DNA from: Terrimonas sp. | Lineage (GTDB): Bacteria > Bacteroidota > Bacteroidia > Chitinophagales > Chitinophagaceae | DNA length: 64,000 nt | Assembly: GCF_003075435.1 (NCBI RefSeq) | Contig: NZ_QCZJ01000006.1 | Coordinates: 186,001 to 250,000, forward strand | Direction of reading: 5' to 3' | Shown here: in pieces, positions 9,255 to 44,021 of the stretch | Layout: each line of letters opens with the position of its first letter | How positions within the stretch are numbered: position 1 is the stretch's first letter | Notes under the pieces: generated by a model | The model's database searches: none | What the model was told of the DNA's origin: nothing | Seen by the model: the letters and a program-made list of their open reading frames with translations, nothing else | Translations under genes and position numbers: made by a program

Positions 9255-9259
9255 ATAAA

Positions 9260-16125: not shown

Positions 16126-16192
16126 ATTTCTTTTTGAAATATTACTGTGTTAACTACTGCTATTAAAAATTGACAGCATAGCGTGTTTGCCA

Positions 16193-17209: not shown

Positions 17210-17233
17210 ATAGCCCTTTCTCAACTATTTTTT

Positions 17234-17263
17234 AAGGACTTGCCACAAGCAAGTCCTTTTTTA
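17234..17263 (+). terminator. Intrinsic terminator between the two FecR genes
   Basis: A 9-bp perfect stem, AAGGACTTG (17234-17242) with CAAGTCCTT (17250-17258), has a 7-base loop and is followed by a run of T. It would end the sigma-FecR transcript and separate it from the second FecR and SusC/D genes. Confidence 0.85.
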
Positions 17264-17338
17264 TTATAAATTTTATCTCTTCTTAGGGGTAAAGACTGTG
17301 TGCTATTGTCTTAATACTATCCAAACGACGGCTTGCTT

Positions 17339-18460: not shown

Positions 18461-18516
18461 CCCAATTCTGCTATGGCAATGCTTAATACATCATGAGAAA
18501 ACATTGAACATAAAAA

Positions 18517-18585
18517 CGGGAAATGTTCCAGCATTTCCCGCCAGGTGTAAAACTTGCCTGAAACGTAATATTAAATGCAAGTTTT
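18517..18585 (+). promoter_or_regulatory. Two consecutive hairpins upstream of susC
   Basis: Hairpin one is CGGGAAATG (18517-18525) with CATTTCCCG (18532-18540), a 9-bp stem with a 6-base loop. Hairpin two is AAAACTTGC (18549-18557) with GCAAGTTTT (18577-18585), also 9 bp, followed by a T-rich stretch. They lie in the 152-base gap between the second FecR and susC and could act as terminator, attenuator or RNA-processing site that sets SusC/D levels apart from FecR. Confidence 0.6.
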
Positions 18586-18612
18586 GTTTAATTAACCCTT
18601 AATGATAAATAT

Positions 18613-21600
18613 ATGAAAAAAAAACGGCTATGGTATTATCACCATTTACCGACTGCTTATTTTAAAGTATTAACAGTTATGAAGCTTACTGTTTTATTGC
18701 TGGTGCTTAGCGTTTGCCAGGTAATGGCAAAAGCAAAGGCCCAGGAAAAAATTACCCTGAACCTTAGCAAGGCATCCATCAGCCAGGTGCTGAGCGCTAT
18801 TGAAAAGCAAGGCTATTACCGTTTTGTATACAATAGCAGTTTGATTGATCTGAAACAAAAAACATCCATTGATGCGAAAGATGCCAGCATTGATGAGGTA
18901 CTTAAAAATCTCTTTACACGTACTGTTCTTTCTTACAACAGGCTTGATGATAACCTGATAGTGGTTATGGAAAATGAAGCTTTAAGAAAAGATATTACCA
19001 TTACAGGTAAGGTAAATGATGCATCAGGCAATCCTTTAGCCGGGGCTTCAGTAACCATAAAAGGAACTTCAAAAGGTGTAACTACAGATGCCAATGGTGA
19101 TTACACTATTTCTGCTCCGGAAAACGGAACATTGGTTATCTCTTCCGTTGGTTATAAAACACAGGAGATTGCCATAAACGATCAAACAAAAATTGACGTA
19201 TACCTTGAGCCATCAGTTTCACAACAACTCAATGAAGTAGTGGTAATTGGGTATGGTACAGCAAAGAAAGGCGATTTAACCAGTTCGATTGCGACAATTA
19301 AGCCGGAGGATCTGAAGAAAACCCCGAGCGGCGCATTGCTTAATGCTGTACAGGGCAACGTAACCGGTGTCCAAATCAGTAGCCTGGGCGGCCCTGGTGA
19401 TGCACCCGAAATTAATATCCGCGGGATCAAATCCTTATACGGGGGAAGTGTTTTATATGTAGTGGATGGAGTATTTGTTGACAATATTGATTTCTTAACA
19501 CCCAATGATATCCAGGATTTCCAGGTGTTAAAAGATGCTTCGTCTGCTGCTATCTATGGTTATAAGGCTTCTAACGGGGTAGTATTAATTACCACCAGGG
19601 GTGGCAAATATAACAAAGATGCTACCGTTACTTATTCCGGTTATTATGGCACACAAAGAGCTGCTAATGTAGTAAAAATGGCTAATGCAGAGCAATTTGT
19701 AAACTTTGCCAACGAATCAGGTTCCAGCGTTGAAATAGCGAGTGTGCAGGCAGCTATTGCCAGGTATGGAAGGAGCCGGGTTAACCCGAACCTGCCTAAT
19801 GCAAATACCGATTGGTATAAGGAGGCCCTGCGCAACGCCCCCATTATGAATCATGATATTTCTGTTGATGGAGGTTCTCAAAAAATATCCTATTCTGTAG
19901 GAGCTAGTTATTTTACCCAGGATGGGATATTAGATATAAAAAGCAGTAGTTATCAACGGTACAATTTAAGGGCAAAATTAGAAGCAAAAGCCAAAGATTG
20001 GTTAACTGTCGGAGCCGGTATGGTGTACAGTAAAAGTGAGCAATACGGCTACGGCAATATTAACCCATGGGCAGAGATATATTATGCTGTACCTATATTA
20101 CCTGTGCTGGATGCCAACTATGCCGGACAAACGGTATATTCCCAGCCATATTCTTCAGCAAAGGATGTAGGATACAGGGATCATCAGAACCCATTCCCCA
20201 ATATGAATAATGTAGATAACCTGGGAGAAAGAAGAAGGATCACTGCCAATGTGTTTGGCGATTTTCATATTCTACCAAAAACCTTAAACTTCAGAACGAG
20301 CCTTTCTTATAATAACAGAAATGATAATAACAGGCTGATGAATTTGCCTTATTATATAGCCGATGCTTATCAAAGAAGTTTAGTACAATCATCCATTACA
20401 AGGTCTAATGCACTGGAGGAAAATTACACTTTTGATAATACGTTAACTTATACTAAGGCATTTGGAGATCACGATATTACCGCAATGGGGGGATTTTCTT
20501 TCAGGGACGAGAGGTATACCTTCTTTTCAACTACAGGAAATTTTTATGAAGGACCTTTTTCAAGAGATGTAAAGCAATCCTGGTATATTGAAAACACCTC
20601 TGCAAGCTCAAGGGTGTCATCAGATGATGGAACCAGGGTATATAGCCGTTCCTATTTCGGGCGGTTGCAATACAAATACAAAAACAAGTACATAGCCTAT
20701 GCTACAGTGAGAAATGAAGCTGCTAACAAGTACAACCAGGAAAAGAGTATTACTTTGCCTTCCGTAGGGTTGGCGTGGATCGTATCCAGTGAAGATTTCA
20801 TGGAAAATCTGTCTTCCATTAATTATTTGAAACTCAGGGCAGGTTGGGGCCGTTTGGCCAATGGCAATGTGCCAACTGCAAGGGCGCAAAGCGCCAATGC
20901 TGTGTGGAGTGTATTTAACGATACAAAAGTAGACGGCTTTAATTTTTCAACTTACCAGGATAACTTAAGCTGGGAATTTAACGAAGAACTGAACGTGGGT
21001 GCAGACCTGGAATTATTGGACAGAAGGTTAAGCATTACCGCAGATTACTTTGTAAAAAATACCAAAAACCTTGCTATCCCTGTATTGCCCCAGGTAGGTA
21101 ACGAAACGAGTTATCAAAACGTGGGAGCTATGCGTAATAAGGGTATAGAAATTTCGGCCACCTGGAGAGGAAAGATTGCTAAAGATTGGGGGTATACGAT
21201 AGGCGCTAATTTTAGTACCATTAAAAATGAAGTTACCAACCTGTTTGGCCAGGCTTTTATAACCAGGGGACCACTGGCTGAGTTTCCGCAGAGATTAACA
21301 GTAGGGCAGCCCTTTGATGTATTTTATGGATACGAGATCACAGGCGTTTATCAAACCCAGGCTGAAGTAGATGCAGATCCGGTAGCTGCTGCTGCAAATG
21401 CAGCCGGTGCAGGAACGGTAAAACCGGGGTATTTTAAATTCAGGGATGTAAACGGAGATAAAGTATTAGATGCCAACGACAGGGTATATTTAGGCTCCCC
21501 GGCCCCTACTTATTATTATGGTGGTAACATTGGGGTAGACTATAAAAACTTTGATTTATCGGTACGCATTTACGGGCAGGGCGGCAATATAATTTTTAAC

Positions 21601-21972
21601 AGTAGCCGTGCAGAAGTTTTCAGGAACCAGGGAAGAAATATAGACGCCCAGTTAGCTGATAACCGCTGGCATGGAGAAGGAACATCCAACAGCTACCCCT
21701 CATCTGAAGGGTACAGAACGGCATGGAACCAAAAGGCTTCAAGGTTTTGGTTAGAAGACGGGAAGTTCTTCAGGATTCAAAATATCCAGTTAGGATACTC
21801 CATAGAGAAGCGTAACAAGGTACCTGAAATGCGTTTTACCCTTACTGCTGACAGGCCTTACGTGTGGTCTAAAAGTAAATCAACCAATGTGGAAGTGGGT
21901 TTTGATGGCATTGATTCGGGTACTTATCCTACCCCTTCCGTGTTTACCGTTGGTTGGAGCGTTAAATTTTAA
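18613..21972 (+). CDS. SusC-like TonB-dependent outer membrane transporter with STN domain
   Basis: An 1119-residue TonB-dependent receptor. After a long basic leader and a signal peptide (to about residue 44, ending A-K-A-Q-E) comes an STN signalling domain (about 48-115) and a carboxypeptidase-D-like repeat domain (about 128-205, I-T-G-K-V-N-D-A-S-G-N-P-L-A-G). Then follow the SusC plug with V-V-V-I-G-Y-G-T-A-K-K and a 22-strand barrel to the end. It imports oligosaccharides with the SusD lid encoded next. The STN domain fits regulation through FecR and the ECF sigma upstream. Confidence 0.95.
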   Translation: MKKKRLWYYHHLPTAYFKVLTVMKLTVLLLVLSVCQVMAKAKAQEKITLNLSKASISQVLSAIEKQGYYRFVYNSSLIDLKQKTSIDAKDASIDEVLKNLFTRTVLSYNRLDDNLIVVMENEALRKDITITGKVNDASGNPLAGASVTIKGTSKGVTTDANGDYTISAPENGTLVISSVGYKTQEIAINDQTKIDVYLEPSVSQQLNEVVVIGYGTAKKGDLTSSIATIKPEDLKKTPSGALLNAVQGNVTGVQISSLGGPGDAPEINIRGIKSLYGGSVLYVVDGVFVDNIDFLTPNDIQDFQVLKDASSAAIYGYKASNGVVLITTRGGKYNKDATVTYSGYYGTQRAANVVKMANAEQFVNFANESGSSVEIASVQAAIARYGRSRVNPNLPNANTDWYKEALRNAPIMNHDISVDGGSQKISYSVGASYFTQDGILDIKSSSYQRYNLRAKLEAKAKDWLTVGAGMVYSKSEQYGYGNINPWAEIYYAVPILPVLDANYAGQTVYSQPYSSAKDVGYRDHQNPFPNMNNVDNLGERRRITANVFGDFHILPKTLNFRTSLSYNNRNDNNRLMNLPYYIADAYQRSLVQSSITRSNALEENYTFDNTLTYTKAFGDHDITAMGGFSFRDERYTFFSTTGNFYEGPFSRDVKQSWYIENTSASSRVSSDDGTRVYSRSYFGRLQYKYKNKYIAYATVRNEAANKYNQEKSITLPSVGLAWIVSSEDFMENLSSINYLKLRAGWGRLANGNVPTARAQSANAVWSVFNDTKVDGFNFSTYQDNLSWEFNEELNVGADLELLDRRLSITADYFVKNTKNLAIPVLPQVGNETSYQNVGAMRNKGIEISATWRGKIAKDWGYTIGANFSTIKNEVTNLFGQAFITRGPLAEFPQRLTVGQPFDVFYGYEITGVYQTQAEVDADPVAAAANAAGAGTVKPGYFKFRDVNGDKVLDANDRVYLGSPAPTYYYGGNIGVDYKNFDLSVRIYGQGGNIIFNSSRAEVFRNQGRNIDAQLADNRWHGEGTSNSYPSSEGYRTAWNQKASRFWLEDGKFFRIQNIQLGYSIEKRNKVPEMRFTLTADRPYVWSKSKSTNVEVGFDGIDSGTYPTPSVFTVGWSVKF

Positions 21973-21987
21973 TATCAGCATTTTAAA

Positions 21988-23550
21988 ATGAATAAAATGA
22001 AAAGTAAAAAATATTTATGGGCGTCTTTATTAATTGTTACAACGTTTTTATTAACGGATTGTAATAAGCAATTAGATGAGCCAAGAGAATTGGAAACCCA
22101 GGCTGGAAGCGTGGATTATACCAATGCCAGTGCAGCAAAAGCAGCGTTGGTAGGGGCGTATCAATCATTCTATGATTTTTGGTGGGAGCATGTTCCCTGC
22201 CTGTCAGTTCGCGGAGACGATGTAAATTCCGGGGGCGGCAGGAATGGCGTATTCGATCAACCTCCTTTTCACGATGAGGATATGTTTGTGTATGATGCTA
22301 ATTTTTGGATGATAAATAATGCCTGGGATGGATTGTTTCAACATGTGCTGCAAATCACAGCACAAATTGAACAATTGGAAAAATTCAGGAAAGCTGGCGT
22401 AAATGCTGCATTGATAGATCAATACATTGCCGAATGCCAGGTATTAAGAGGCTGGCTTACATTAACGTTGTCAAGAACATTTGGTGGAGTGTTTAAAGTA
22501 ACCACTACAGACCCGACAGTGCTTTCAATGCAGACCAAGGACGAGATCATGAGCTGGATTAAAGAAGAAATGCAGGATGCGTCAACGAAGTTATTGGATA
22601 TGCATCCTAATCAAAGAACTGATTTAAGAGGAGGGGTCACAAAATATACTGCTTTGGCAGTAAAGGCAATGGCCGAGCAGGAATTAAAAGATTACAATGC
22701 GGTTGCAACAACTACTGGTGAGATTATTTCTTCCGGGAAGTTTAGCCTGTATGGGGATTTTAATAAAGAATTTAAAACCGCAGGTAAATTATCAAGTGAG
22801 AATATTCTGGAAGTCCAATATTCGGATTTTAATTCAGGCTCGGGAGATAGCCGGAATTATTTAAATGATTTTTTTGGTCCTACAAACTGGACGCCTGCAG
22901 TTAGTGGCGCCGGGGGCGGCTGGGGATTTTTTGAGCCAAGTGAGAAATACATTAAGTTTATGTTGAACAGAGGTGAGAAGACCCGCCTCCAGACAAGTGT
23001 AATTTTTACACCCGATGGTATTGATAAAATTAAATCAGACCCTGCATTCTCAACGTTGCCGGCATGGGTTTCTAACACCACCCCTGAAGGTGATGTTTTC
23101 CTGAATTCCCCCAGGGTTTATTTCTATAGCGGCAAGCATTACCTTCCTACAACAGAATTAATTCCGGGAAGGACAGGTTATGCCAGTAATAAAAACATGA
23201 ATATTATCAGGTATGCGGAAATATTATTAATGTATGCGGAAGCTGTAACCCGTGGCGGTAATGCATCTGCCGGAAGCGCAGATGCTGCTGTAAACCTGGT
23301 AAGGGCCAGGGCAGGTCTGGCGCCTTTATCCGGTGTAACCAGCCAGCAGGTAATAGATGAGAAATATGCAGAACTGGCTATGGAATGGGGTAACAGGTTT
23401 TATGATATGATACGTTTGGAAAATACTGCCGAATTGAGTTATGACGGCAGGACATTTACCATGGACAAAAAATACCTCCCTTATCCTTTGCCGCAATTGG
23501 ATAAGAGTGCTATTTTAAAAGAATATGCAGATACGCATCCTGATCATTAA
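21988..23550 (+). CDS. SusD-like outer membrane glycan-binding lipoprotein
   Basis: A 520-residue SusD/RagB family protein. The lipoprotein signal ends in L-L-T-D-C, with Asp before the lipid-bearing Cys, which is unusual but seen in Bacteroidota. The conserved C-terminal block I-I-R-Y-A-E-I-L-L-M-Y-A-E-A and the following Y-A-E-L-A-M-E-W-G-N-R-F-Y-D-M-I-R are clear. It forms the surface lid of the SusC transporter. The start at 21988 lies 15 bases after susC, and a second Met three codons in is equally possible. Confidence 0.95.
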   Translation: MNKMKSKKYLWASLLIVTTFLLTDCNKQLDEPRELETQAGSVDYTNASAAKAALVGAYQSFYDFWWEHVPCLSVRGDDVNSGGGRNGVFDQPPFHDEDMFVYDANFWMINNAWDGLFQHVLQITAQIEQLEKFRKAGVNAALIDQYIAECQVLRGWLTLTLSRTFGGVFKVTTTDPTVLSMQTKDEIMSWIKEEMQDASTKLLDMHPNQRTDLRGGVTKYTALAVKAMAEQELKDYNAVATTTGEIISSGKFSLYGDFNKEFKTAGKLSSENILEVQYSDFNSGSGDSRNYLNDFFGPTNWTPAVSGAGGGWGFFEPSEKYIKFMLNRGEKTRLQTSVIFTPDGIDKIKSDPAFSTLPAWVSNTTPEGDVFLNSPRVYFYSGKHYLPTTELIPGRTGYASNKNMNIIRYAEILLMYAEAVTRGGNASAGSADAAVNLVRARAGLAPLSGVTSQQVIDEKYAELAMEWGNRFYDMIRLENTAELSYDGRTFTMDKKYLPYPLPQLDKSAILKEYADTHPDH

Positions 23551-23569
23551 TTTATTAAGTATTAATATT

Positions 23570-24643
23570 ATGAAAAGTATTTTGAAATGTATTATTACAG
23601 GGATAGTGTTATCATTATCCTTTGCAGCCTGTAAGAAAGGCTACATAGACCCGATTTCAAAAGTAGACCCGGGGCCTGATGAACTGGCGCCAATAGTAGA
23701 GATAATCAGCCCGTCATCTGATATCCAGATTCCACCTACTACTGATGTTACAAATTTTGATTTTAAATTTAAGGTTACAGATGATATTGAGCTAAGCAAA
23801 GTTGATATTTCCTTAAATGGTACTTTATTAAAGTCATATGCCAGTACTGATCTTATAGATTACAGGGGAATATCAGGTACTTATACTTATGCTGATTTGG
23901 GTTTAGGTGCTCATACTTTTGAAGTTGTTGCAACTGACCTGTCCGGAAAAAGCACTACTAAATCATTTGCGTTTAACATCAGTAATAAGTATATTCCACT
24001 TTTATCAAGCGAAGTTTTATATGTTCCTTTTGATGCAGATTTTAAGGATTTGATAAATACTGTTTCACCGGTTGTTACGGGTACTCCCGCTATTGCTACA
24101 GGAGGGCATAATAGTGCAGCTTACCAGGGAGCAACTGATGCATATCTGACGTTTCCAATTGCAGGCTTGTATAGTTCGGAAGGGATCAGTTTTTCTTTTT
24201 GGTACAAGCTGAATGCTTCCCCTGATCGTTCAGGAATTATTACTATTAATGATAATGACAATAATTCGGATGAAAATAGAAGCCAGGGGTTGAGATTATT
24301 TAGAGAGGTAGCTGCAGGTTCCCAAACAATGAAAATTAATGTAGGAACGGGTTCCGGAGAATCATGGAATGATGGCGGGGCAATTCCTGGTTCAGGTGCT
24401 TGGGTGCATGTTGCAGTTACTGTTTCCCCAACAGAATCTAAAATTTATTTCAATGGTGTTCTTCAAAGAACAGCGACATATACTACTGCGTTCGACTTTT
24501 CAACAAGTACGACTATGACGATTGGTTCAGGCGCACCATCATTTACTTATTGGAGCCATTTATCTGATTTAAGTTTATATGATGAGTTCAGGGTATTCAA
24601 TAAAGTATTAACACCTGAAGATATTGAACTTTTAATGCAGTAA
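23570..24643 (+). CDS. LamG/concanavalin A-like surface lipoprotein
   Basis: About 357 residues, with a lipoprotein signal ending L-S-F-A-A-C-K-K. Residues about 38-140 form an Ig-like domain, and about 150-357 a LamG-like concanavalin A fold (L-Y-V-P-F-D-A-D-F-K-D, I-S-F-S-F-W-Y-K-L, G-A-W-V-H-V-A-V-T, D-E-F-R-V-F-N-K). It takes the SusE/F position after SusD and probably is a surface glycan-binding protein. The ATG at 23570 is used; an upstream ATG would overlap susD without giving a signal peptide. A very strong terminator follows. Confidence 0.85.
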   Translation: MKSILKCIITGIVLSLSFAACKKGYIDPISKVDPGPDELAPIVEIISPSSDIQIPPTTDVTNFDFKFKVTDDIELSKVDISLNGTLLKSYASTDLIDYRGISGTYTYADLGLGAHTFEVVATDLSGKSTTKSFAFNISNKYIPLLSSEVLYVPFDADFKDLINTVSPVVTGTPAIATGGHNSAAYQGATDAYLTFPIAGLYSSEGISFSFWYKLNASPDRSGIITINDNDNNSDENRSQGLRLFREVAAGSQTMKINVGTGSGESWNDGGAIPGSGAWVHVAVTVSPTESKIYFNGVLQRTATYTTAFDFSTSTTMTIGSGAPSFTYWSHLSDLSLYDEFRVFNKVLTPEDIELLMQ

Positions 24644-24665
24644 TAGCTTGAATTAAATCAGCAGG

Positions 24666-24709
24666 TTAAAAACGCCTTACGGTACGGCAAAACCGTAAGG
24701 CGTTTTTAA
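24666..24709 (+). terminator. Strong intrinsic terminator after the SusC/D/LamG operon
   Basis: An 18-bp perfect inverted repeat (24666-24683 with 24692-24709), with the core AACGCCTTACGGT pairing with ACCGTAAGGCGTT, an 8-base loop and flanking A and T runs on both sides. It can act in both directions. It separates the binding and transport genes from the enzyme genes. Confidence 0.93.
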
Positions 24710-24790
24710 TATAAGATTAAGAGCCCGGAAGTATAGTGCTGACACATATTGTTAACGCCTTTACTTTTTTAAAACATGCAGGCCTGAGAA

Positions 24791-26443
24791 ATGAGAAAAA
24801 TATTATTTTCAGTTTTGTTATTTCATGCTGTTTTTATCAGCGCATGTAAGAAAGGAAGTGACCCTGCACCACCATCCCCGGCTCCTGATTTTTCTATCAA
24901 CAGTTGGGAGGTAGACGGAGTTACTAATCAGAATGACAATAAAGGAACAGCCGTAAACCCGGATATCCGGCTTTATTTTCCGGTAGCAATTGACAAGGCT
25001 TCGGTTGCTTCGGCTATTGAGCTGCCCACAGCTAATTATAATGTAAATTATCAGAATGGCGACAGCATATTAGTAATACAGCCAAAATCTACCTTATCAT
25101 ATCTTTCAAACTATAAGCTTACTGTTAATAATACCCTGAAATCAAAGGGTGGGGGGAAGTTGATTTTTCCTGTTGAAATAAAGTTGCAGACCAGGTATGA
25201 CACTTTATATAAATTTCCCCTAATAAGTGACAGCGCCCTGCTTGATAAAGTACAGCAACAAACATTTAAATACTTCTGGGACTTTGGACACCCGGTAAGC
25301 GGCCTGGCAAGAGAAAGAAGCAACGGCAATAATGATGTGGTTACTTCCGGCGGTTCAGGATTTGGTATAATGGCTATACCGGTGGCGGTTAGCCGGAATT
25401 TTATTACCAGGGCTGATGGGCTTGCCCGTATGCAAAAGATAGTTGGCTTTTTAAAGCATACTGCGGTTAAAGTAAAAGGCGCATTTCCGCACTGGTTAAA
25501 TGGGTCTACCGGTGCTATCATTCCTTTTAGCACCAATGATGATGGCGCAGACCTGGTGGAAACATCTTATTTAATGGCGGGGTTGCTTACTGCCAGGCAA
25601 TATTTTAATGGAACAGATGCTGATGAAACTGCTTTAAGGAACGATATCAATGTGCTGTGGAATGGAGTGGAATGGGATTGGTTCAGAAATGGCGGACAGA
25701 ACGTTTTGTACTGGCACTACAGCGATGCAAAACAATGGATCATGAACCTCCCGGTACAGGGCTGGAATGAATGTCTCATCACTTATATACTGGCGGCATC
25801 TTCTGCTACTCATGGTATTCCTCAATCGGTTTATGCAAATGGCTGGGCCTCCGGTTCATCATTTTTAAATGGCAATGCTTATTACAGCTACCAGTTGCCG
25901 TTAGGTCCGTCGCTGGGAGGTCCGCTGTTCTTTTCACACTACTCATTTTTAGGGGTGAATCCTAATGGGCTGAGTGACGCTTACGCAAACTACAGCACAC
26001 AAACCACTAATCATTCACTCATTAATTATGAATATTGTAAAGCAAACCCCAGGAGATGGTATGGCTATAGCGATAGCTGCTGGGGGCTAACGGCAAGCGA
26101 TATACAAAATGGTTATACAGCCAGCTCACCCACAAATGATATTGGAGTGATTGCACCAACAGCTGCTATATCTTCTTTGCCGTATACTCCTGTTGAGTCA
26201 ATGAAAGCTTTAAAATTTTTTTACTATACACTTGGTGATAAAATATGGAAGGATTATGGTTTTGTTGACGCGTTTTCACTGCATGATCTCTGGTTTGCCA
26301 ACTCTTTTTTAGCAATAGACCAGGGCACGCAAATTATAATGATTGAAAATTACCGGAGCGGGTTATTATGGAACCTATTTATGAGTTGCCCGGAAATAAA
26401 AGCAGGGTTGCAATCATTGGGGTTTAATGCGCCGGGGTTATAG
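24791..26443 (+). CDS. GH144-type glucanase, lipoprotein (glucoamylase-like domain)
   Basis: A 550-residue lipoprotein (F-I-S-A-C-K-K) with an Ig-like domain at about 33-133 and an (alpha/alpha)6-barrel catalytic domain at about 145-550. Blocks T-F-K-Y-F-W-D-F, G-G-S-G-F-G-I-M-A, D-D-G-A-D-L-V-E-T-S, L-F-F-S-H-Y-S-F-L-G and S-C-W-G-L-T-A-S-D mark the glycoamylase family that includes GH144 endo-beta-1,2-glucanases, first described from Chitinophaga. Asp254 and Glu257 match, from memory, acidic residues important in that enzyme. As a lipoprotein it probably cuts polymer at the cell surface. Other substrates of the wider family cannot be excluded. Confidence 0.8.
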   Translation: MRKILFSVLLFHAVFISACKKGSDPAPPSPAPDFSINSWEVDGVTNQNDNKGTAVNPDIRLYFPVAIDKASVASAIELPTANYNVNYQNGDSILVIQPKSTLSYLSNYKLTVNNTLKSKGGGKLIFPVEIKLQTRYDTLYKFPLISDSALLDKVQQQTFKYFWDFGHPVSGLARERSNGNNDVVTSGGSGFGIMAIPVAVSRNFITRADGLARMQKIVGFLKHTAVKVKGAFPHWLNGSTGAIIPFSTNDDGADLVETSYLMAGLLTARQYFNGTDADETALRNDINVLWNGVEWDWFRNGGQNVLYWHYSDAKQWIMNLPVQGWNECLITYILAASSATHGIPQSVYANGWASGSSFLNGNAYYSYQLPLGPSLGGPLFFSHYSFLGVNPNGLSDAYANYSTQTTNHSLINYEYCKANPRRWYGYSDSCWGLTASDIQNGYTASSPTNDIGVIAPTAAISSLPYTPVESMKALKFFYYTLGDKIWKDYGFVDAFSLHDLWFANSFLAIDQGTQIIMIENYRSGLLWNLFMSCPEIKAGLQSLGFNAPGL

Positions 26444-26477
26444 GTATTAACCATTCTTTAAGCGATATCTTGATAAT

Positions 26478-27815
26478 ATGAAACATATATTTCTATTTAC
26501 TTTTCTCTTTTTCAGCCTGTGTGCTGATGCACAGCAGAAGAAACCCATTCAACCGGTATTTGATGCTGCCAAACGGCCTAAAAATCTTTCTGATTCAGCA
26601 TTGCTTGACCTTGTTCAAAAACAAACTTTTCGCTACTTCTGGGATTTTGCACACCCAGTAAGCGGAATGGCGAGAGAAAGAAGCAATACAGCATACTATG
26701 GGCATGAAGTGGTAACAACCGGGGGAACGGGCTTTGGTATTATGTCGATAATTGTTGCAACGGAAAGGGGTTGGATATCCAGGGACACTGCCGCGGGATT
26801 TATGCGTAAAATGGTCAATTTTTTATTGAAAGCAAATTCCTATCATGGCGTATTTCCACACTGGCTTGATGGCGCTACCGGTAAAACCATTCCTTTCAGC
26901 AGGAAGGATGATGGAGCAGATCTTGTAGAGACATCATTTTTGTTCCAGGGCTTGCTTTGTGCGCGGCAGTATTTTAACCAGGATAATCCGGTAGAAAACG
27001 AATTCAGGAATAAACTCAACTGGCTATGGACAGGTATTGAATGGAACTGGTTTACACGCGATGGGCAGGATGTTTTATACTGGCACTGGAGTCCCAACAA
27101 TGGATGGGCAATGAATTTTCCGGTGAGGGGGTTTAATGAATGCCTGATCATGTATATACTTGCTGCAAGTGATGAGAAACATTATCCTGTCAGCGCTTCC
27201 GTATACCACCGGGGTTGGGTGGAAAGCAATTTTTTTAAAAATGGCAAACAATTTTACGGTCATACTTTACCCTTAGGGTTTGACTATGGCGGGCCATTAT
27301 TTTTTTCACATTATTCCTTTCTGGGATTAAACCCTAAGGGACTGAAAGACCGCTATGCAGACTACTGGCAGCAAAATGTAAATCATACTTTAATCAATCA
27401 CGACTACTGTGTAGAGAATCCTAAAAAATTTAAAGGCTATAATGATAGCTGCTGGGGACTGACTGCGAGTGATACCTATAATGGTTATGATGCGCATTCT
27501 CCCACTAATGATCATGGAACTATTACGCCAACAGCAGCGCTGTCTTCTTTTCCATATACGCCCGAATTATCTATGAAAGCACTCAAACATTTTTACTATA
27601 ACCTTGGAGATAAGATATGGGGTGAATATGGATTTACAGATGCATTCAATGAAACGCAAAACTGGTATTCAAAAAATTACCTGGCAATAGATCAGGGACC
27701 TATTATTGTGATGATAGAAAATTACAGAAGCGGGTTATTATGGAACTTATTTATGAGCTGCCCGGAGATTAAATATGGATTGAAGAAGCTGGGGTTTGAA
27801 AGTAAGGGCAAGTAA
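26478..27815 (+). CDS. GH144-type glucanase, periplasmic (second copy)
   Basis: A 445-residue paralogue of the preceding protein, with the same catalytic blocks (T-F-R-Y-F-W-D-F, T-G-F-G-I-M-S, D-D-G-A-D-L-V-E-T-S with Asp148 and Glu151, S-C-W-G-L-T-A-S-D). It lacks the Ig-like domain and has a signal peptide ending A-D-A-Q without a lipobox Cys. It is therefore likely periplasmic and could shorten imported oligosaccharides. Tandem surface and periplasmic copies suggest a two-step breakdown of one glucan. Confidence 0.8.
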   Translation: MKHIFLFTFLFFSLCADAQQKKPIQPVFDAAKRPKNLSDSALLDLVQKQTFRYFWDFAHPVSGMARERSNTAYYGHEVVTTGGTGFGIMSIIVATERGWISRDTAAGFMRKMVNFLLKANSYHGVFPHWLDGATGKTIPFSRKDDGADLVETSFLFQGLLCARQYFNQDNPVENEFRNKLNWLWTGIEWNWFTRDGQDVLYWHWSPNNGWAMNFPVRGFNECLIMYILAASDEKHYPVSASVYHRGWVESNFFKNGKQFYGHTLPLGFDYGGPLFFSHYSFLGLNPKGLKDRYADYWQQNVNHTLINHDYCVENPKKFKGYNDSCWGLTASDTYNGYDAHSPTNDHGTITPTAALSSFPYTPELSMKALKHFYYNLGDKIWGEYGFTDAFNETQNWYSKNYLAIDQGPIIVMIENYRSGLLWNLFMSCPEIKYGLKKLGFESKGK

Positions 27816-27819
27816 GTTA

Positions 27820-27894
27820 GTCGCCAGAGGTGACAGGGGAGCTGTGCGTGGCGAACCTGCCTGACGGCAGTCAGGGACGCCACGCACAGCTCCC
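27820..27894. repeat. Intergenic palindromic repeat cluster
   Basis: GTCGCCAGAGGTGAC (27820-27834) is followed by a perfect 17-bp inverted repeat (27837-27853 with 27878-27894, core GAGCTGTGCGTGGCG). Its loop holds a second palindrome, CCTGAC (27860-27865) with GTCAGG (27870-27875), of the CCTGCCTG-x-CGGCAG type. Related pieces occur in inverted order at 28410-28455. It lies between a GH144 gene and the DoxX gene and could also act as a transcription or mRNA-stability element. Confidence 0.85.
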
Positions 27895-27960
27895 AATGGC
27901 CGCCAGAGATGCCATGTGCAGCACCATATAGCAGTAGTTGATGGTTTTAAATCATATACA

Positions 27961-28374
27961 ATGAAAAGAATATTTTCTCCTGATTCCTGTATGATGCAAG
28001 AAGGATTAACCTTTATCAGGATCATCATTGGATTGTTAATGGTCTACCATGGTTGGGAGGTATTTGACAAAGCAAAGATGGTGGAGTACGCTAAATGGGA
28101 ACGTTTTAATAGCTATGCTGCTCCTGCCGTAATGGTATATATAGGCAAAGGTGCAGAATTAATTTCGGGGGTATTGCTTGCGTTTGGGTTATTTACCCGT
28201 ATTGCTGCGGTTATATTAATAATTACCATGCTGTACATATGTTTTAAAGTAGGAAACGGCAGGTTTTGGTATGAAGACCAACACCCGTTTTTATTTGCAC
28301 TGCTGGGGTTGATATATTTCTTTGCTGGCGGAGGAAAGTATAGTATTGATAATATATTGTTTAAAAAGAAATAA
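27961..28374 (+). CDS. DoxX family membrane protein
   Basis: A 137-residue protein with four membrane spans and the DoxX pattern: E-G-L-T-F-I-R-I-I-I-G-L-L-M-V-Y-H-G-W-E near the start, and G-A-E-L-I-S-G-V-L-L-A-F-G-L-F-T-R-I-A-A in the middle. DoxX proteins are linked to redox balance, but the role is poorly defined. Its place within a glycan-degrading operon is curious; it may simply be carried along. The ATG at 27961 gives the family-like N-terminus, while the upstream in-frame ATG at 27916 would add residues encoded by repeat DNA. Confidence 0.85.
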   Translation: MKRIFSPDSCMMQEGLTFIRIIIGLLMVYHGWEVFDKAKMVEYAKWERFNSYAAPAVMVYIGKGAELISGVLLAFGLFTRIAAVILIITMLYICFKVGNGRFWYEDQHPFLFALLGLIYFFAGGGKYSIDNILFKKK

Positions 28375-28409
28375 TGATATAAGTGTTGTGTGAGGTTTGT
28401 GAACGCTGC

Positions 28410-28455
28410 GTGAGGCGTCCTCGCCTCACACATATCTCTTGTCGCCTCTGGCGAC
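28410..28455. repeat. Intergenic palindromic repeats, inverted relative to 27820-27894
   Basis: GTGAGGCG (28410-28417) pairs with CGCCTCAC (28422-28429), an 8-bp stem with a 4-base loop, then GTCGCC-TCT-GGCGAC (28441-28455). Read on the minus strand, the order GTCGCC..GGCGAC followed by a G-T-G-x-G-G-C-G stem matches the cluster at 27820-27894, so these look like two copies of one repeat family flanking the DoxX gene in opposite directions. Confidence 0.75.
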
Positions 28456-28469
28456 TAAAACATATAAAT

Positions 28470-30206
28470 ATGAGACAATTATTTTTTACAATGCTGTTAC
28501 TGCTTGTTATACAAGCTCCATTTGCCCAGCAACGCACCTATTGCAACCCCGTCAATATCGATTATGGCTATACACCCATTCCCAACTTTAGCGAATGGGG
28601 CAGGCACAGGGCAACGGCTGACCCGGTAATTGTAAATTATAAAGGCGATTACTTTTTGTTCAGCACCAACCAATGGGGCTACTGGTGGAGCAGTGATATG
28701 CTCAACTGGAAGTTCATCAGCAAGAAGTTTTTGCGTCCATGGAATGGAGGGGTATACGATGAGCTTTGTGCGCCTGCTGTAGGCATTATCGGGGATACAA
28801 TGCTGGTTTTCGGGTCAACTTATACTTCAACTTTTACCATCTGGATGAGCACCAATCCCAAAGCCAATGAATGGAAACCATTGATAGATTCATTTTCGTT
28901 GGGCGGCTGGGACCCATCTTTCTTTACAGATGATGATGGCAGGCTTTATATGTACAATGGCAGCAGCAACAAATTCCCGATGTATGGCATAGAGTTGAAT
29001 AGAAAAACGATGTCGCCTATAGGATACAGAAAGGAAATGTATCTCTTAGAGCCATGGCGCTACGGCTGGCAACGGTTTGGTGAGGATATGGACAACACCT
29101 TTCTTGATCCGTTTATTGAAGGCTCACATATGACGAAACATGACGGTAAATACTATCTTCAATATGGTGCGCCCGGCACAGAGTTCAGTGGTTATGCGGA
29201 TGGTGTAATTGTAGGTGAACATCCACTGGGCCCTTTCGCGCCGCAATCTGATCCCTTAAGTTTTAAGCTGGGTGGTTTTGTAAGAGGCGCAGGGCATGGC
29301 GCTACTTTTGAGGACAATGATAAAAAATTCTGGCATGTAAGTACGGTTGTACTATCTGTAAAAAATAATTTTGAAAGAAGGCTGGGCATTTGGCCGACAG
29401 GCTTTGATAAAGATGGAGTGATGTGGTGTAATACCGCATTCGGCGATTACCCCACCTATTTACCGGGAACAGCTAATGCTGGTGGTTTTACCGGGTGGAT
29501 GTTGCTGAATTACAAAACACCTGTACAGGTTTCGTCTACTCTTGGTGGTTACCATGCTAACAACGCGGTAGATGAAGTGATGAAAACATACTGGAGCGCG
29601 GCTACAGGCAATAAGGGTGAGTGGATACAAGCGGATCTGGAAAATATATCCACAGTAAATGCAATACAGATCAACTATGCTGACCAGGATGTGGATGATG
29701 ATCGTTTAGGAAAAAGAACCGACCAGTTTCACCAGTATAAAGTATATTATTCTGCAGATGGTAAAAAGTGGAGTGTATTAACGGATAAGAGTAATAATAA
29801 AACAGATGTGCCTCACGACTATATAGAACTAAACCAACCGGTAAAAGCCCGGTATATCAAACTGGAAAATATACACATGCCCACCGGTAAATTTGCAATA
29901 AGTGGATTAAGAGTATTTGGCAATGGCGGCGGAGCAAAACCGGATAAAGTAAAACAGTTTATTGTTTTGCGAACTGAAAAGGATAAACGAAGCGCATATA
30001 TGAAATGGAGCCCGGTTAATAATGCATATGCCTATAACATTTACTATGGCACCGATCCGGAAAAATTATACAACTGTATAATGGTACATGATGTAAACGA
30101 GTATTGGTTTAAAGGAATGGATAGCCAAAAAACTTACTATTACACTATTGAAGCTATTAACGAAAACGGTATATCTGAAAAGCTACCGGTGATGAAAGTA
30201 GAATAA
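28470..30206 (+). CDS. GH43 family glycosidase with F5/8C and FN3-like domains
   Basis: A 578-residue secreted protein (signal peptide ending A-P-F-A-Q). The five-bladed propeller (about 46-330) has the GH43 triad: base Asp51 in T-A-D-P-V-I, Asp148 in G-G-W-D-P-S-F-F, and acid Glu217 in F-I-E-G-S-H. A discoidin-type carbohydrate-binding domain follows (about 345-495), then a short FN3-like domain (about 505-578). GH43 members act on arabinosides, xylosides and some galactosides. Its exact substrate and how it fits with a glucan-degrading locus are not clear. The ATG at 28470 is the only one giving a signal peptide. Confidence 0.85.
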   Translation: MRQLFFTMLLLLVIQAPFAQQRTYCNPVNIDYGYTPIPNFSEWGRHRATADPVIVNYKGDYFLFSTNQWGYWWSSDMLNWKFISKKFLRPWNGGVYDELCAPAVGIIGDTMLVFGSTYTSTFTIWMSTNPKANEWKPLIDSFSLGGWDPSFFTDDDGRLYMYNGSSNKFPMYGIELNRKTMSPIGYRKEMYLLEPWRYGWQRFGEDMDNTFLDPFIEGSHMTKHDGKYYLQYGAPGTEFSGYADGVIVGEHPLGPFAPQSDPLSFKLGGFVRGAGHGATFEDNDKKFWHVSTVVLSVKNNFERRLGIWPTGFDKDGVMWCNTAFGDYPTYLPGTANAGGFTGWMLLNYKTPVQVSSTLGGYHANNAVDEVMKTYWSAATGNKGEWIQADLENISTVNAIQINYADQDVDDDRLGKRTDQFHQYKVYYSADGKKWSVLTDKSNNKTDVPHDYIELNQPVKARYIKLENIHMPTGKFAISGLRVFGNGGGAKPDKVKQFIVLRTEKDKRSAYMKWSPVNNAYAYNIYYGTDPEKLYNCIMVHDVNEYWFKGMDSQKTYYYTIEAINENGISEKLPVMKVE

Positions 30207-30227
30207 TCATTAAAACAAATATCGAAG

Positions 30228-30884
30228 ATGAAAAAATTATCTCTTATCGTTTTTTTTCTTGTATGTTCAGTTAGCCTGTTTGCACAAAATCCTCCATTCT
30301 ATAACGATATCCGGAAATTTAAACAACAGGATAGCCTGAATTTTCCGGCCAGGAAAGCTGTTTTATTTATCGGCAGCTCCTCATTTACAAAATGGACGGA
30401 TGTGCAGGATTATTTTCCCGGGTATAAGATCATTAACCGCGGATTTGGCGGCTCCACATTACCCGATCTTATCCGTTATGTAAATGATATTGTAGTGCCG
30501 TACAAACCCAGGCAAATTGTGATATACTGCGGGGAGAATGATATTGCTTCGTCTGATACGACAACTGCGGAAACAGTTGCGCAAAGATTTGTTACATTGT
30601 TTGAAGCTATCAGGAAAGTATACCCGAAAGTAACAATAGACTTTATATCCATGAAACCAAGCCCAAGCAGGGAGCGGTTTCTGCCAAAACTGCAAGCTGC
30701 CAATCAGCAGGTCAAAGATTATATAGCTACTCAAAAAAATGCTGCATATATCGACATCTATCCCTATATGATGCACGAAAACGGAAGCCCAAGAAAGGCT
30801 TTATTTATTGAGGATATGCTGCACATGAATAAGCATGGGTATGCTATATGGCAATATGCCATCTTACCTTACCTTAAAAAATAG
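30228..30884 (+). CDS. SGNH/GDSL-type hydrolase
   Basis: A 218-residue secreted protein (signal peptide ending L-F-A-Q). Block I is F-I-G-S-S-S-F with the nucleophile Ser, block II has R-G-F-G-G-S, block III is G-E-N-D (the G-x-N-D motif) and block V is D-M-L-H with the catalytic Asp/His. It would remove ester groups such as acetyl or succinyl from a glycan. Substituted cyclic beta-glucans carry such groups, which would fit the locus; this is inference. Confidence 0.88.
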   Translation: MKKLSLIVFFLVCSVSLFAQNPPFYNDIRKFKQQDSLNFPARKAVLFIGSSSFTKWTDVQDYFPGYKIINRGFGGSTLPDLIRYVNDIVVPYKPRQIVIYCGENDIASSDTTTAETVAQRFVTLFEAIRKVYPKVTIDFISMKPSPSRERFLPKLQAANQQVKDYIATQKNAAYIDIYPYMMHENGSPRKALFIEDMLHMNKHGYAIWQYAILPYLKK

Positions 30885-30910
30885 ATGTATATAACACTAA
30901 CACCTGCAAT

Positions 30911-33190
30911 ATGAAAAGGATATTAACCATACTGTTGCTCCTGTATATAACTGTTCCTCTTACTGCGCAAAAGGCATCTGACGCCAGAATGAATGCTTTT
31001 ATCAGCAGCTTAATGCAGAAAATGACTATTGATGAAAAAATAGGACAGTTGAATTTGCTTACCGGCGGAGAAGCAACAACAGGCTCTGTGGTAAGTTCAG
31101 GCGTAGAGAACAAAATTAAGAAGGGACAGGTTGGGGGCATTTTCAGTATGTCTTCACCTGCACGTATCCGTAAAGCACAGGAGATTGCGGTTACACAAAC
31201 CCGTTTGAAGATTCCCATAATTTTTGGAATGGATGTAATACATGGTTACAAAACGATGTTTCCTATACCACTTGGTTTATCATGCACCTGGGATATGAAT
31301 TTAGTTGAACGCAGTGCAAGGATCGCTGCTACCGAAGCTAGTGCAGACGGATTAAACTGGACATTTTCGCCAATGGTTGATATAGCCCGGGATCCACGCT
31401 GGGGACGTATATCCGAAGGTAATGGGGAGGATCCTTACCTGGGTTCACAAATTGCAAAAGCAATGGTAAAAGGTTACCAGGGAGATGATCTTTGGAAGAA
31501 CAATACCATTATGGCCTGTGTGAAACATTTTGCATTATACGGTGCAGGTGAGGCCGGCCGAGATTATAATACGGTTGACATGAGCCGCGTGAGAATGTAT
31601 AATGAATTCCTGCCTCCTTACAAGGCTGCGGTAGATGCAGGTGTCGGCACGGTAATGACTTCTTTCAACGAAATTGACGGCATTCCCGCAACCGCCAATA
31701 AATGGCTGTTTACTGATCTGCTTCGCAGGCAATGGGGATTTAAAGGAATGATAGTTACAGATTATACTGCGGTGAATGAGATGATAGATCACGGCATGGG
31801 TGACCTGCAGCAGGTATCTGCACTGGCACTAAAAGCAGGAGTGGATATGGATATGGTAGGCGAAGGATTTCTTACCACATTAAAAAAATCGCTGCAGCAG
31901 GGAAAAGTTACACAAAAACAAATTGATGATGCATGTAGAAGGGTTTTAGAGACAAAGTATAAACTTGGTTTGTTTGATGATCCTTACCGTTATTGTAATG
32001 AAGAACGTGCAGCAAAAGAAATATATAGTGAAGCCAACCGTAAGGAAGCAAGAGCAATTTCAGCGGAGAGTTTTGTATTGCTTAAGAATGCAGATTATAC
32101 ATTGCCGGTAAAAAAATCCGGCACTATTGCATTGATTGGCCCACTGGCGGATAACCGCTCAAATATGCCCGGAATATGGAGTGTATCTACTGATTTTACA
32201 AAACCTGTATCTGTGCTGGAAGGACTAAAAGAAGTAGCAGGCAGTAATGCAAAAATTCTTTATGCCAAAGGTTCTAACCTTACAGAAGATAGCCTGCTGG
32301 AGCAAAGGGCTACTATGTTTGGTAAAACATTGGGAAGGGATAACCGCAGTGATGAAGCATTACTGAAAGAAGCATTGGATATAGCAGTGCAATCAGACGT
32401 AATAGTAGCTGCATTAGGCGAAGCCGCAGAGATGACAGGTGAAAGTGCCAGCAGAACGGATATTGGAATACCGGACGTGCAGCGAAAATTACTTGAGGCC
32501 TTACTGAAAACCGGCAAACCTGTAGTATTGGTTTTATTTGCCGGAAGGCCGATGACACTGGTTTGGGAACAGCAAAATGTTCCTGCCATATTAAATGTTT
32601 GGTTTCCTGGTTCTGAGGCCGGAACAGCTATAGCAGATGTGTTGTTTGGTGATGTAAATCCTTCAGGTAAATTGTCTGCTACTTTTCCTCAGAACGTAGG
32701 ACAAATACCATTATACTATAATCATAAGAATACCGGTCGCCCTTTACCCGATGGGCAATGGTTTCAGAAATTCCGTTCTAATTATTTAGATGTATCCAAT
32801 GATCCGTTGTATCCCTTTGGTTTTGGATTGAGCTATACAACTTTCAGTTATAGTGATATTACATTAAGCAGCAATACTTTTAAGCCCAACGAAAAAATCA
32901 CCGCGACGGTAACGGTAACGAATTCCGGCAATATAACAGGTAAAGAAGTTGTTCAATTATACATTCGTGATATGGCAGGGAGCATTACCCGGCCGGTGAA
33001 GGAATTAAAAGGGTTTCAAAAAATTGAACTAAAAGCAGGAGAATCGAAAACTGTTTCATTTACTATTTCGGCAGAAGATCTGAAGTTTTATAACAGTGAT
33101 TTGAAATTTGTAGCTGAACCCGGCGACTTTAAATTATTTATCGGTACAAACAGCAGAGATGTTAAGGAGGTGGATTTTAAATTATTATAG
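30911..33190 (+). CDS. GH3 beta-glucosidase (BglX-like)
   Basis: A 759-residue secreted GH3 enzyme (signal peptide ending L-T-A-Q). The TIM-barrel domain carries the nucleophile Asp284 in G-M-I-V-T-D-Y-T-A. The second domain carries the likely acid/base Glu511 in M-T-G-E-S-A-S-R, and the C-terminus is a fibronectin-III-like domain. K-H-F near residue 206 and D-P-R-W-G-R near 161 are the usual sugar-binding motifs. It would release glucose from oligosaccharides in the periplasm. A Bacteroides GH3 enzyme (BT_3567, from memory) with GH144 neighbours prefers beta-1,2 links, which makes that specificity plausible here. Confidence 0.9.
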   Translation: MKRILTILLLLYITVPLTAQKASDARMNAFISSLMQKMTIDEKIGQLNLLTGGEATTGSVVSSGVENKIKKGQVGGIFSMSSPARIRKAQEIAVTQTRLKIPIIFGMDVIHGYKTMFPIPLGLSCTWDMNLVERSARIAATEASADGLNWTFSPMVDIARDPRWGRISEGNGEDPYLGSQIAKAMVKGYQGDDLWKNNTIMACVKHFALYGAGEAGRDYNTVDMSRVRMYNEFLPPYKAAVDAGVGTVMTSFNEIDGIPATANKWLFTDLLRRQWGFKGMIVTDYTAVNEMIDHGMGDLQQVSALALKAGVDMDMVGEGFLTTLKKSLQQGKVTQKQIDDACRRVLETKYKLGLFDDPYRYCNEERAAKEIYSEANRKEARAISAESFVLLKNADYTLPVKKSGTIALIGPLADNRSNMPGIWSVSTDFTKPVSVLEGLKEVAGSNAKILYAKGSNLTEDSLLEQRATMFGKTLGRDNRSDEALLKEALDIAVQSDVIVAALGEAAEMTGESASRTDIGIPDVQRKLLEALLKTGKPVVLVLFAGRPMTLVWEQQNVPAILNVWFPGSEAGTAIADVLFGDVNPSGKLSATFPQNVGQIPLYYNHKNTGRPLPDGQWFQKFRSNYLDVSNDPLYPFGFGLSYTTFSYSDITLSSNTFKPNEKITATVTVTNSGNITGKEVVQLYIRDMAGSITRPVKELKGFQKIELKAGESKTVSFTISAEDLKFYNSDLKFVAEPGDFKLFIGTNSRDVKEVDFKLL

Positions 33191-33289: not shown

Positions 33290-35548
33290 ATGCCATTAGC
33301 GAAAATTGTTATAACCATATTGTTCAGCAGCCTGATTTGTCCGGCAATTAATGCGCAAAATAATTTTGATATTATTCCCAAACCAGTGAGCGTTAGCACA
33401 GGATCTGGCAATTTTACTTTTCAGCCAGATATTGATATAATAACAACAGTAGCTTTTAAAGATGCTGCAGTTTTATTAAACGAACATCCTGCCATAAAAA
33501 ATGCAAGGATAAAGACTGTGAAGAAAAATGATGCGGCCAATAAACATGCGATCTATATGCTTAACGCAACTGAAGCGGATAAGCTACCTGAAAATGCTTA
33601 TTCCCTTGCTGTTAATGAAGAAAACATCATTATTAAGGCGTGGGATAAACCGCAAATGATTAATGCTGTTTATACGCTGGTACAGTTAGGGTATTTGCAG
33701 CAGGATCCGAAAACGTTAACCACGGCAGTTATCATTGATGAACCAAGATTTTCATACCGGGGATTGCATTTAGATGTATCGCGCCATTTCATGCCCTTAT
33801 CTTTTGTAAAAAAATATATTGATGTAATGGCCATCTATAAATTCAACAACCTGCACTGGCATTTAACCGATGGCGCCGGGTGGCGTTTGGAAATAAAAAA
33901 ATATCCCCAATTAACCCGGCTTGCCGCCTGGCGTACGCATGCAGGCTGGAAGGAATGGTGGAACAATGGCAGGCGCTATATTGAAAAAGGCGCACCTAAT
34001 GCAAGCGGTGGTTTTTATACGCAACAGCAGGCAAAAGAATTAGTGGACTATGCGGCTAAAAAAGGCATTAATGTTATTCCTGAAATTGAAATGCCGGGCC
34101 ACTCTGAAGAAGTGCTGGCAGTGTTTCCGGAACTATCCTGCACCGGTAAGCCATATACGCAAAGTGAATTTTGTATTGGTAATCCTGAAACTTTTACGTT
34201 TTTAAAGAATGTGTTGGATGAAGTACTAACCATTTTTCCATCCCGGTATATTCACATAGGCGGGGATGAAGCCGATAAAAAACATTGGGAAACCTGCCCT
34301 AAGGACCAGGCATTGATGCAAAAAGAAGGGTTACGCTCGGTAGATGAATTGCAGAGTTATGCAATTAAGCAAATGGATATTTACTTGCAATCCAAAGGAC
34401 GGCGAATAATTGGTTGGGATGAAATTTTAGAAGGAGGTTTAAGTGGTGGTGCTACGGTAATGAGTTGGCGCGGAGAAGCAGGAGGGATTAGATCAGCCAA
34501 TGCAGGGCATGATGTAATAATGACGCCCGGCTCTCATTTGTATTTTGATTCATATCAAACGGATCCCAGAACACAACCCGAAGCAATAGGTGGTTTTCTT
34601 ACTTTAGAAAAAGTATATTCCTATGATCCTGTTCCTGCAGCAATTGCCCCTGATAAGGTAAATCATATTTTAGGTGCGCAGGCCAATTTGTGGACGGAAT
34701 ACATACCTACAACTGAGCAGGCGGAATATATGGTGTTTCCAAGAGCCCTGGCACTGGCAGAGCTGGACTGGACCGCAAAGGAAAAGAAAAACTGGAAGGA
34801 TTTTCAACAACGCCTGCAATCGCATTACAAACTATTACAGGATTTGAATGTGAACTATTATCGCCCGTCTTATAATGTTGGGCATGAATCGATATATAAT
34901 CCCGATAAAAAATCAAATTTAATTACATTGACTACTGAACAGCTGAATGCAAAGAATATTCATTACACAGTCAACGGAACGGCGCCTCAAATTAGCTCGA
35001 CATATTACGTGGCTCCTTTTGAACTAAATCATTCCGCAGTAGTTAATGCCGCATATTTTCAGGATTCTATACAAATAGGACCAACATTAACCTTTATTAC
35101 CGATATACATAAGGCAATAGGCAAACCGGTAATGTACAATAGCAAATGGGATGGGTATCCTGCGCAAAATGAAGCTACCATGACCAATGGCATTATGGGC
35201 GGGCTAACTTATCACGATGGCCAGTGGCAGGGTTTTACAAGACCTGTTGATTTGATTGTTGATATGCAGGAAACAACTATCATTAACAGTGTTGCCATGA
35301 ATTTTATGCAGCTTATTGGCCCGGGCGTTTATATGCCGGGCGAAATGCAGGTCTTACTTTCCGGTGACGGAAAAAATTTTCAACTGGCAGGTGTAGCATA
35401 TAATGATATTTCCGATAAAGACAGCAGGCTGCTCTTTAAAAGGTTTGATGTGAAATTAGAAAAGCCACAGCAGGCAAGATATGTGCAGGTGAAGGCCACT
35501 AATCCTAAGAGGGGGTATTTATTTACTGATGAAATTATTGTATACTAA
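33290..35548 (+). CDS. GH20 beta-N-acetylhexosaminidase
   Basis: A 752-residue secreted protein. The N-terminal GH20b domain is followed by the catalytic barrel with G-L-H-L-D-V-S-R-H-F, N-N-L-H-W-H-L-T-D-G-A-G-W-R and the catalytic pair Asp326-Glu327 in H-I-G-G-D-E-A-D. The C-terminal part has a chitobiase-like repeat and an F5/8C-like module (about 625-752). It removes terminal GlcNAc or GalNAc. It does not obviously belong to glucan breakdown, and a 99-base gap precedes it, so it may be an add-on to the locus. Confidence 0.9.
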   Translation: MPLAKIVITILFSSLICPAINAQNNFDIIPKPVSVSTGSGNFTFQPDIDIITTVAFKDAAVLLNEHPAIKNARIKTVKKNDAANKHAIYMLNATEADKLPENAYSLAVNEENIIIKAWDKPQMINAVYTLVQLGYLQQDPKTLTTAVIIDEPRFSYRGLHLDVSRHFMPLSFVKKYIDVMAIYKFNNLHWHLTDGAGWRLEIKKYPQLTRLAAWRTHAGWKEWWNNGRRYIEKGAPNASGGFYTQQQAKELVDYAAKKGINVIPEIEMPGHSEEVLAVFPELSCTGKPYTQSEFCIGNPETFTFLKNVLDEVLTIFPSRYIHIGGDEADKKHWETCPKDQALMQKEGLRSVDELQSYAIKQMDIYLQSKGRRIIGWDEILEGGLSGGATVMSWRGEAGGIRSANAGHDVIMTPGSHLYFDSYQTDPRTQPEAIGGFLTLEKVYSYDPVPAAIAPDKVNHILGAQANLWTEYIPTTEQAEYMVFPRALALAELDWTAKEKKNWKDFQQRLQSHYKLLQDLNVNYYRPSYNVGHESIYNPDKKSNLITLTTEQLNAKNIHYTVNGTAPQISSTYYVAPFELNHSAVVNAAYFQDSIQIGPTLTFITDIHKAIGKPVMYNSKWDGYPAQNEATMTNGIMGGLTYHDGQWQGFTRPVDLIVDMQETTIINSVAMNFMQLIGPGVYMPGEMQVLLSGDGKNFQLAGVAYNDISDKDSRLLFKRFDVKLEKPQQARYVQVKATNPKRGYLFTDEIIVY

Positions 35549-43774: not shown

Positions 43775-43849
43775 AATTTTCCCTCCTGTATCATTTAGTA
43801 GCACTGTTGCATTATACTCATCAGCATTACTGACGTTGACAAGTGCGAC

Positions 43850-43871
43850 GCCTGCCTGCCGGTAGGCAGGC
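43850..43871. repeat. GCCTGCCT...AGGCAGGC palindromic repeat
   Basis: Arms 43850-43857 and 43864-43871 with a 6-base loop lie in the metH leader. It is the same family as the inner palindrome at 27856-27875. In this phylum such repeats often extend reading frames with P-A-x-R-Q-A-G peptides, as happens here on the minus strand. Confidence 0.85.
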
Positions 43872-44021
43872 AAGTAATGTATTATAGTAGTAATGCCGCC
43901 GGCATCAAAAAAAGTAAACTAAACTTTAAAACGTTGGGAAACTTTGAGAAGGTTTCTTATCGTTTATTAGTTCAGTTTTTAAACAGGCTGAACAATAAAC
44001 AAATCCGCCTGTAATTGGGTG

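Follow-up and report, generated by a model that had tools for sequence, protein, structure and literature searches.

What polysaccharide is served by a block of transport, regulatory and glycoside hydrolase (GH) genes in Terrimonas sp.? The block was analysed within a stretch of 64,000 nucleotides, referred to as the window, which is part of contig 6 of a 6.2-Mb genome and whose nearest named relatives by GH43 are metagenome-assembled genomes of Chitinophagaceae (93 and 92% identity). Judged by predicted gene functions, the bacterium very probably takes up beta-1,2-linked glucans of bacterial make and breaks them down. The block is assigned with considerable confidence to the SusCD-type polysaccharide utilisation loci (PULs) for beta-1,2-glucans, which are probably substituted. 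It occupies 15607–33190 on the plus strand with short intergenic gaps, susC and susD being adjacent and the glycoside hydrolase genes co-directional, as is required of a SusCD-type PUL. An earlier sequence-only reading had placed the locus at 24791–33190; these limits hold the enzymes and are too narrow, since the same strand carries genes for regulators, SusC, SusD and a LamG lipoprotein further upstream. The gene positions that it gave for two GH144 proteins, an SGNH hydrolase and a GH3 were all correct.

The two GH144 proteins

Two consecutive plus-strand genes encode GH144 proteins, type A (24791–26443), a lipoprotein with a Big_5 domain, and type B (26478–27815), predicted to be periplasmic. 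Protein A has the lipobox FISAC19 and carries its Big_5 domain at residues 41–121 (E 6.8e-7); B has a signal peptide without a lipobox. The Pfam Glycoamylase domain was matched at E 6.9e-71 (A) and 7.7e-79 (B), and the assignment is therefore not due to chance. The founding member of GH144, the endo-beta-1,2-glucanase CpSGL of Chitinophaga pinensis (5gzh/5gzk), was 53.7% identical to A and 59.4% to B over 404 aligned residues (phmmer E 1.6e-135 and 2.4e-164, respectively). Seven PDB sequences were matched at E ≤0.001, namely CpSGL (two), BDI_3064, XcSGL and three uncharacterised close homologues, and no member of GH162, GH189 or GH192–194 was among them. A strong Big_5 domain, and no other Pfam domain, was also found in a 481-residue protein elsewhere in the window (46140–47585, minus strand).

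Mutation of D135, D139, E142 or the general acid E211 lowers the activity of CpSGL, and the D139 position helps to tell GH144 apart within the SGL clan, whose other groups have no acidic residue there (PMC12102758). By alignment these residues correspond to D250, D254, E257 and E327 in A and to D144, D148, E151 and E221 in B, and D254, E257 and E327 were invariant across 51 aligned GH144 proteins. The residues named by the sequence-only reading (Asp254/Glu257 and Asp148/Glu151) were exact, and the general acid (E327/E221), which it did not list, is present as well. An AlphaFold model of A (pLDDT, the predicted local distance difference test, 93.7) forms an (alpha/alpha)6 barrel and was superposed on 4gl3 with a root-mean-square deviation (rmsd) of 1.0 Å and a TM-score by target of 0.97, and on CpSGL (5gzk) with 1.5 Å and 0.94. 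The rmsd to GH144 crystal structures overall was 1.0–1.9 Å, and other SGL-clan families superposed clearly worse.

The possibility that the pair belongs to another glycoamylase clade outside GH144 was examined with a FastTree tree of 148 proteins, in which both fall inside GH144. Three clades are concerned: one of 54 proteins, about 560 residues long, contains A; one of 59 contains B together with the uncharacterised 4gl3; and one of 30 contains CpSGL. Sequence, active-site residues and tree thus agree on the membership of both proteins, as does the predicted structure for A. CpSGL, cited beforehand as the reference, is the right family and the wrong clade: the pair shares with it 54–59% identity, the fold and the four critical acidic residues, but is not orthologous to it, and A differs further in being a lipoprotein with a Big_5 domain. 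The exo-acting BDI_3064 of Parabacteroides distasonis (5z06) is likewise a GH144 with an N-terminal extension but scores lower than CpSGL (384 and 424 bits versus 456 and 551). Since A and B lie in two clades other than that of CpSGL, endo or exo action can only be predicted for them.

GH3, SGNH and the import genes

The GH3 gene (30911–33190, plus strand) encodes a beta-glucosidase of BglX type (NCBIfam BglX model, 973 bits). The protein aligned end to end (E 0) with 5xxl, the structure of BT_3567, which is the B. thetaiotaomicron GH3 for beta-1,2-glucan; BT_3567 and the GH3 beta-glucosidase Lin1840 both come from beta-1,2-glucan clusters. Its nucleophile is D284, and subsite +1 is formed by R610 and the aromatic residues Y285 and F621. 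R610 is equivalent to Arg572 of Lin1840, which binds sophorose, and to Arg587 of JMB19063 (PMC4757417). A GH3 of this kind would favour beta-1,2 specificity without proving it, because enzymes with this arginine, BT_3567 and Lin1840 included, also take laminaribiose; the specificity of the window GH3 is predicted from its sequence. The beta-1,2-oligomer context proposed earlier for this enzyme agrees with its closeness to BT_3567 and with the retained sophorose-binding arginine. The SGNH hydrolase encoded directly upstream (30228–30884, plus strand; Lipase_GDSL_2, E 1e-14) has all four conserved blocks, GSSS (49), GGST (74), GEND (102) and DMLH (196).

The plus-strand genes upstream of the GH144 pair were assigned by Pfam. 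They encode an ECF-type (extracytoplasmic function) sigma factor with Sigma70_r2 and Sigma70_r4_2 domains, the probable regulator (15607–16125), two FecR-type anti-sigma factors (16187–17209 and 17333–18460), a SusC TonB-dependent transporter with an STN signalling domain (18613–21972; NCBIfam OMP_RagA_SusC, 786 bits), a SusD lipoprotein (21988–23550) and a lipoprotein of surface glycan-binding type with Big_7 and Laminin_G_3 (LamG) domains (23570–24643), whose translation contains the lipobox FAAC.

Relatives of this SusD at 48% identity or more were found in 8 of 296 Bacteroidota genomes, from four families, and in 8/8 of these the susD gene has a GH144 gene no more than about 5 kb away (distances read from tables). 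Of the 149 genomes in the window's own family, just one besides the window's carries a SusD of this kind, and most GH144 loci of the family hold SusC/SusD proteins of roughly 23–41% identity. The import genes look exchanged, because their SusD type is rare in its own family and yet stands beside GH144 in others, which suggests that an import module has moved between GH144 loci of like kind. The SusC/SusD/LamG trio as a whole (18613–24643) occurs in 2/149 genomes of the family, and relatives of the trio at about 41–54% identity lie beside GH144 in other families (loci L199, L095, L138 and L274).

Two confirmed GH144 proteins, a GH3 of BT_3567 type and a SusD type found only beside GH144 support the beta-1,2-glucan locus that had been predicted. 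Loci of this type have been assigned to beta-1,2-glucans before (PMC6499787, PMC8072126). In common with the GH144 PULs of Bacteroidota, among them that of Maribacter dokdonensis (GH3, two GH144, susCD and a sulfatase; PMC8072126), the window has SusCD, two GH144 proteins and a GH3 clustered together. It differs in having SGNH, GH43 and DoxX genes and no sulfatase, and in beginning with the ECF sigma and FecR genes.

GH43 as a partner of GH144

Between the GH144 pair and the SGNH gene lies a GH43 gene with an F5/8 type C domain (Pfam, alignment), called as 28383–30206 on the plus strand and probably starting at 28470. Numbered from 28470, the catalytic triad is D51, D148 and E217, invariant in 31 aligned proteins. 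The protein has the five-bladed propeller fold (Z 26.4 to 7erl, rmsd 3.0 Å over 287 residues, from a model with a pLDDT of only 69.6). The best PDB sequence match was distant (E 4.8e-7). Fold and triad are shared with GH43 beta-xylosidases and arabinofuranosidases; the solved structures that match, however, are tied at only about 15–23% identity, so their specificities are not transferable, and none could be assigned from sequence or fold, every match being too distant.

The sequence-only reading had left this gene unexplained by the substrate; co-occurrence, gene order and tree instead make it a conserved core member of GH144 loci. Of the family's 149 genomes, 96 carry GH144 and 68 the GH43 clade (at 62% identity or more; a manual count from a table). 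All 68 also have GH144, so that GH43 is found in 68/96 genomes with GH144 and in 0/53 without (Fisher 6e-20). Phylum-wide, GH144 is present in 54/59 genomes with GH43 against 38/237 others (3e-28), and the two genes lie within 15 kb of each other in 30/59 GH43 genomes (counted by hand). These genome counts take no account of shared ancestry, and the p-values overstate the association; the repeated linkage on the GH43 tree is for this reason the better argument. There the GH144-linked state appears in several separate clades, some only 38–45% identical to the window GH43, and is clustered (10 changes versus 26.5 when shuffled). In a survey of 60 GH144-centred loci of 14–20 kb, GH43 was present in 37; the next gene was SGNH in 23 of these and GH3 in 11.

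That GH43 is a bystander kept by common descent, or serves generally in the periplasm with no role on the GH144 substrate, appears unlikely. Solo relatives of it do occur away from GH144 loci in many genomes; the clustering of the linked state in several clades, the presence of GH144 in every family genome with the close GH43 clade and the usual position directly before SGNH or GH3 all speak against this explanation. It is tentatively proposed that the GH43 enzymes of these loci recognise, with a specificity not yet described, some substituent or linkage on natural beta-1,2-glucans. A literature search for GH43 enzymes acting on periplasmic or cyclic glucans returned nothing relevant.

Substrate, source and surroundings of the locus

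The gene content of the sister loci bears on how pure the glucan may be. In the closest, L065, the gene order is kept, shared genes are 69–94% identical and a few extra genes are inserted. Cultured relatives with the same block include Terrimonas ferruginea DSM 30193 and Parapedobacter luteus DSM 22899 (loci L101 and L135). In L065 a HAD phosphatase gene directly follows GH3; in the window a GH20 gene with an F5/8C domain (33290–35548, plus strand; Pfam) comes first and the HAD gene after it. GH20 was found in only 1/60 GH144 loci, beside susC and outside the enzyme block, and together with its absence from L065 this led to its rejection as a member of the locus. GH20, which the sequence-only reading had also left unexplained by the substrate and which lies outside the interval that it gave, is non-core, unlike GH43. 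The 60 loci hold GH3 in 45, SGNH in 36, a LamG protein in 33 and GH30 in 23; DoxX, in the window a small membrane protein (27916–28374, plus strand; Pfam), is a recurrent accessory gene (11/60). Other loci variously hold a third GH144, GH97, GMC and Gfo/Idh/MocA oxidoreductases or an alpha/beta-hydrolase, and some have GH31, sulfatase and phosphodiesterase-like genes, identified by eye from sequence. Such variation would fit glucans with varying branches and substituents, for example the O-succinylated cyclic glucan of Brucella (cited in PMC11842490).

In four sister loci (L187, L189, L072 and L111) a gene block resembling an oxidative sugar pathway is inserted between GH144 and GH43, with Gfo/Idh/MocA, SDR, ROK kinase, SIS, MetE-like, NagB-like, metallo-beta-lactamase-fold, DoxX and GMC oxidoreductase genes. 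The window retains only DoxX, and the closest GMC gene of the genome is on contig 12. For an oxidative (3-keto) glycoside pathway built from the GMC, Gfo/Idh/MocA and DoxX genes of the sister loci, no supporting paper was found among those searched. A separate SusCD locus on contig 28 of the same genome (L211:8943-19373), whose target is probably beta-1,3/1,6-glucan, has two GH16-like genes and a GH30; the latter shares about 65% identity with the GH30 in the GH144 loci of relatives.

The same variation can be read as pointing to a mixed glycan of which beta-1,2-linked glucose is only a part, such as a heteroglycan that also contains pentofuranose or galactose units, with GH43, SGNH and perhaps GH20 acting on the other parts. 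The tight tie of GH43 to GH144 in several separate GH43 clades, the GH30, GH97 and further genes of the sister loci and the precedent of a beta-1,2-galactosidase in a GH144 locus (PMC11739564) agree with such a substrate. It is nevertheless considered rather improbable, as the commonest partners, GH144 and the BglX-type GH3, both suit a beta-1,2-glucan, the GH144–GH3 pair recurs while the accessory genes differ between loci, and GH20 is almost never present.

The glucan could also be the bacterium's own, since the genome encodes, on another contig, a synthase that matches NdvB (8rf0, E 0) and the GH189 domain structure 8wy1 (E 5e-127) and has GH94 domains. NdvB-type synthases occur in 29/149 genomes of this family. 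GH144 is present in 21/29 genomes with the synthase against 75/120 without (p = 0.39), so co-occurrence lends recycling no support and feeding on a foreign glucan is the better reading; the separate contig and the SusCD/sigma/FecR arrangement, which suits import from outside, also argue against recycling, which is judged very improbable.

For a beta-1,2-glucan taken from outside, the predicted functions suggest the following course. The SusD and LamG lipoproteins would bind the glucan at the cell surface, where GH144 A would cleave it outside the cell; SusC would bring the fragments in, its STN domain and the FecR and ECF sigma genes presumably sensing import, and GH144 B would shorten them in the periplasm. 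GH3 would then free glucose from sophoro-oligosaccharides, the SGNH enzyme may strip ester groups and GH43 may take off a further substituent. Periplasmic or cyclic glucans of proteobacteria, proposed as the source by the sequence-only reading, may be what is fed on, and the ester groups may be theirs.

Several points weigh against this assignment. The support comes from sequence and context: family membership, active-site residues, fold and a conserved gene order are shown, and from these the substrate, the cellular locations, the course of events and the roles of SGNH and GH43 are predicted. The characterised CpSGL sits apart from A and B in its third clade, and BDI_3064, itself a GH144, is exo-acting, so that the pair may cut in either mode. 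GH3 enzymes with the R610-type arginine cleave laminaribiose too (PMC4757417), solo GH43 relatives exist, and the genome counts are not corrected for ancestry. A GH35 from another GH144 locus is a beta-1,2-galactosidase inactive on sophoro-oligosaccharides, so that GH144 loci may serve glycans beyond pure glucans (PMC11739564).

Directly upstream of the locus (1462–15469) lies an extracellular polysaccharide cluster with genes for glycosyltransferases, an acyltransferase, a pyruvyl transferase, a WecG/TagA family protein and a sugar transferase. Further downstream, on the minus strand, methionine synthase seems split (39192–41885 and 42770–43873), the homocysteine methyltransferase domain being separate from a remainder of 897 residues.

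GH144 loci are a known and abundant type of PUL (PMC6499787, PMC8072126), and the presence of one here was expected. What is useful is that GH43, and to a lesser degree SGNH, behave as core parts of such loci, and it is the phylum-wide tie between GH144 and GH43 that is worth pursuing, with the GH35 beta-1,2-galactosidase as a precedent (PMC11739564). If the specificity proposed for GH43 is true, the glucans eaten by Bacteroidota would be chemically more complex than described so far. The locus offers a defined set of enzymes for learning what natural beta-1,2-glucans carry, and it bears on whether the periplasmic and cyclic glucans of other bacteria regularly feed Bacteroidota.

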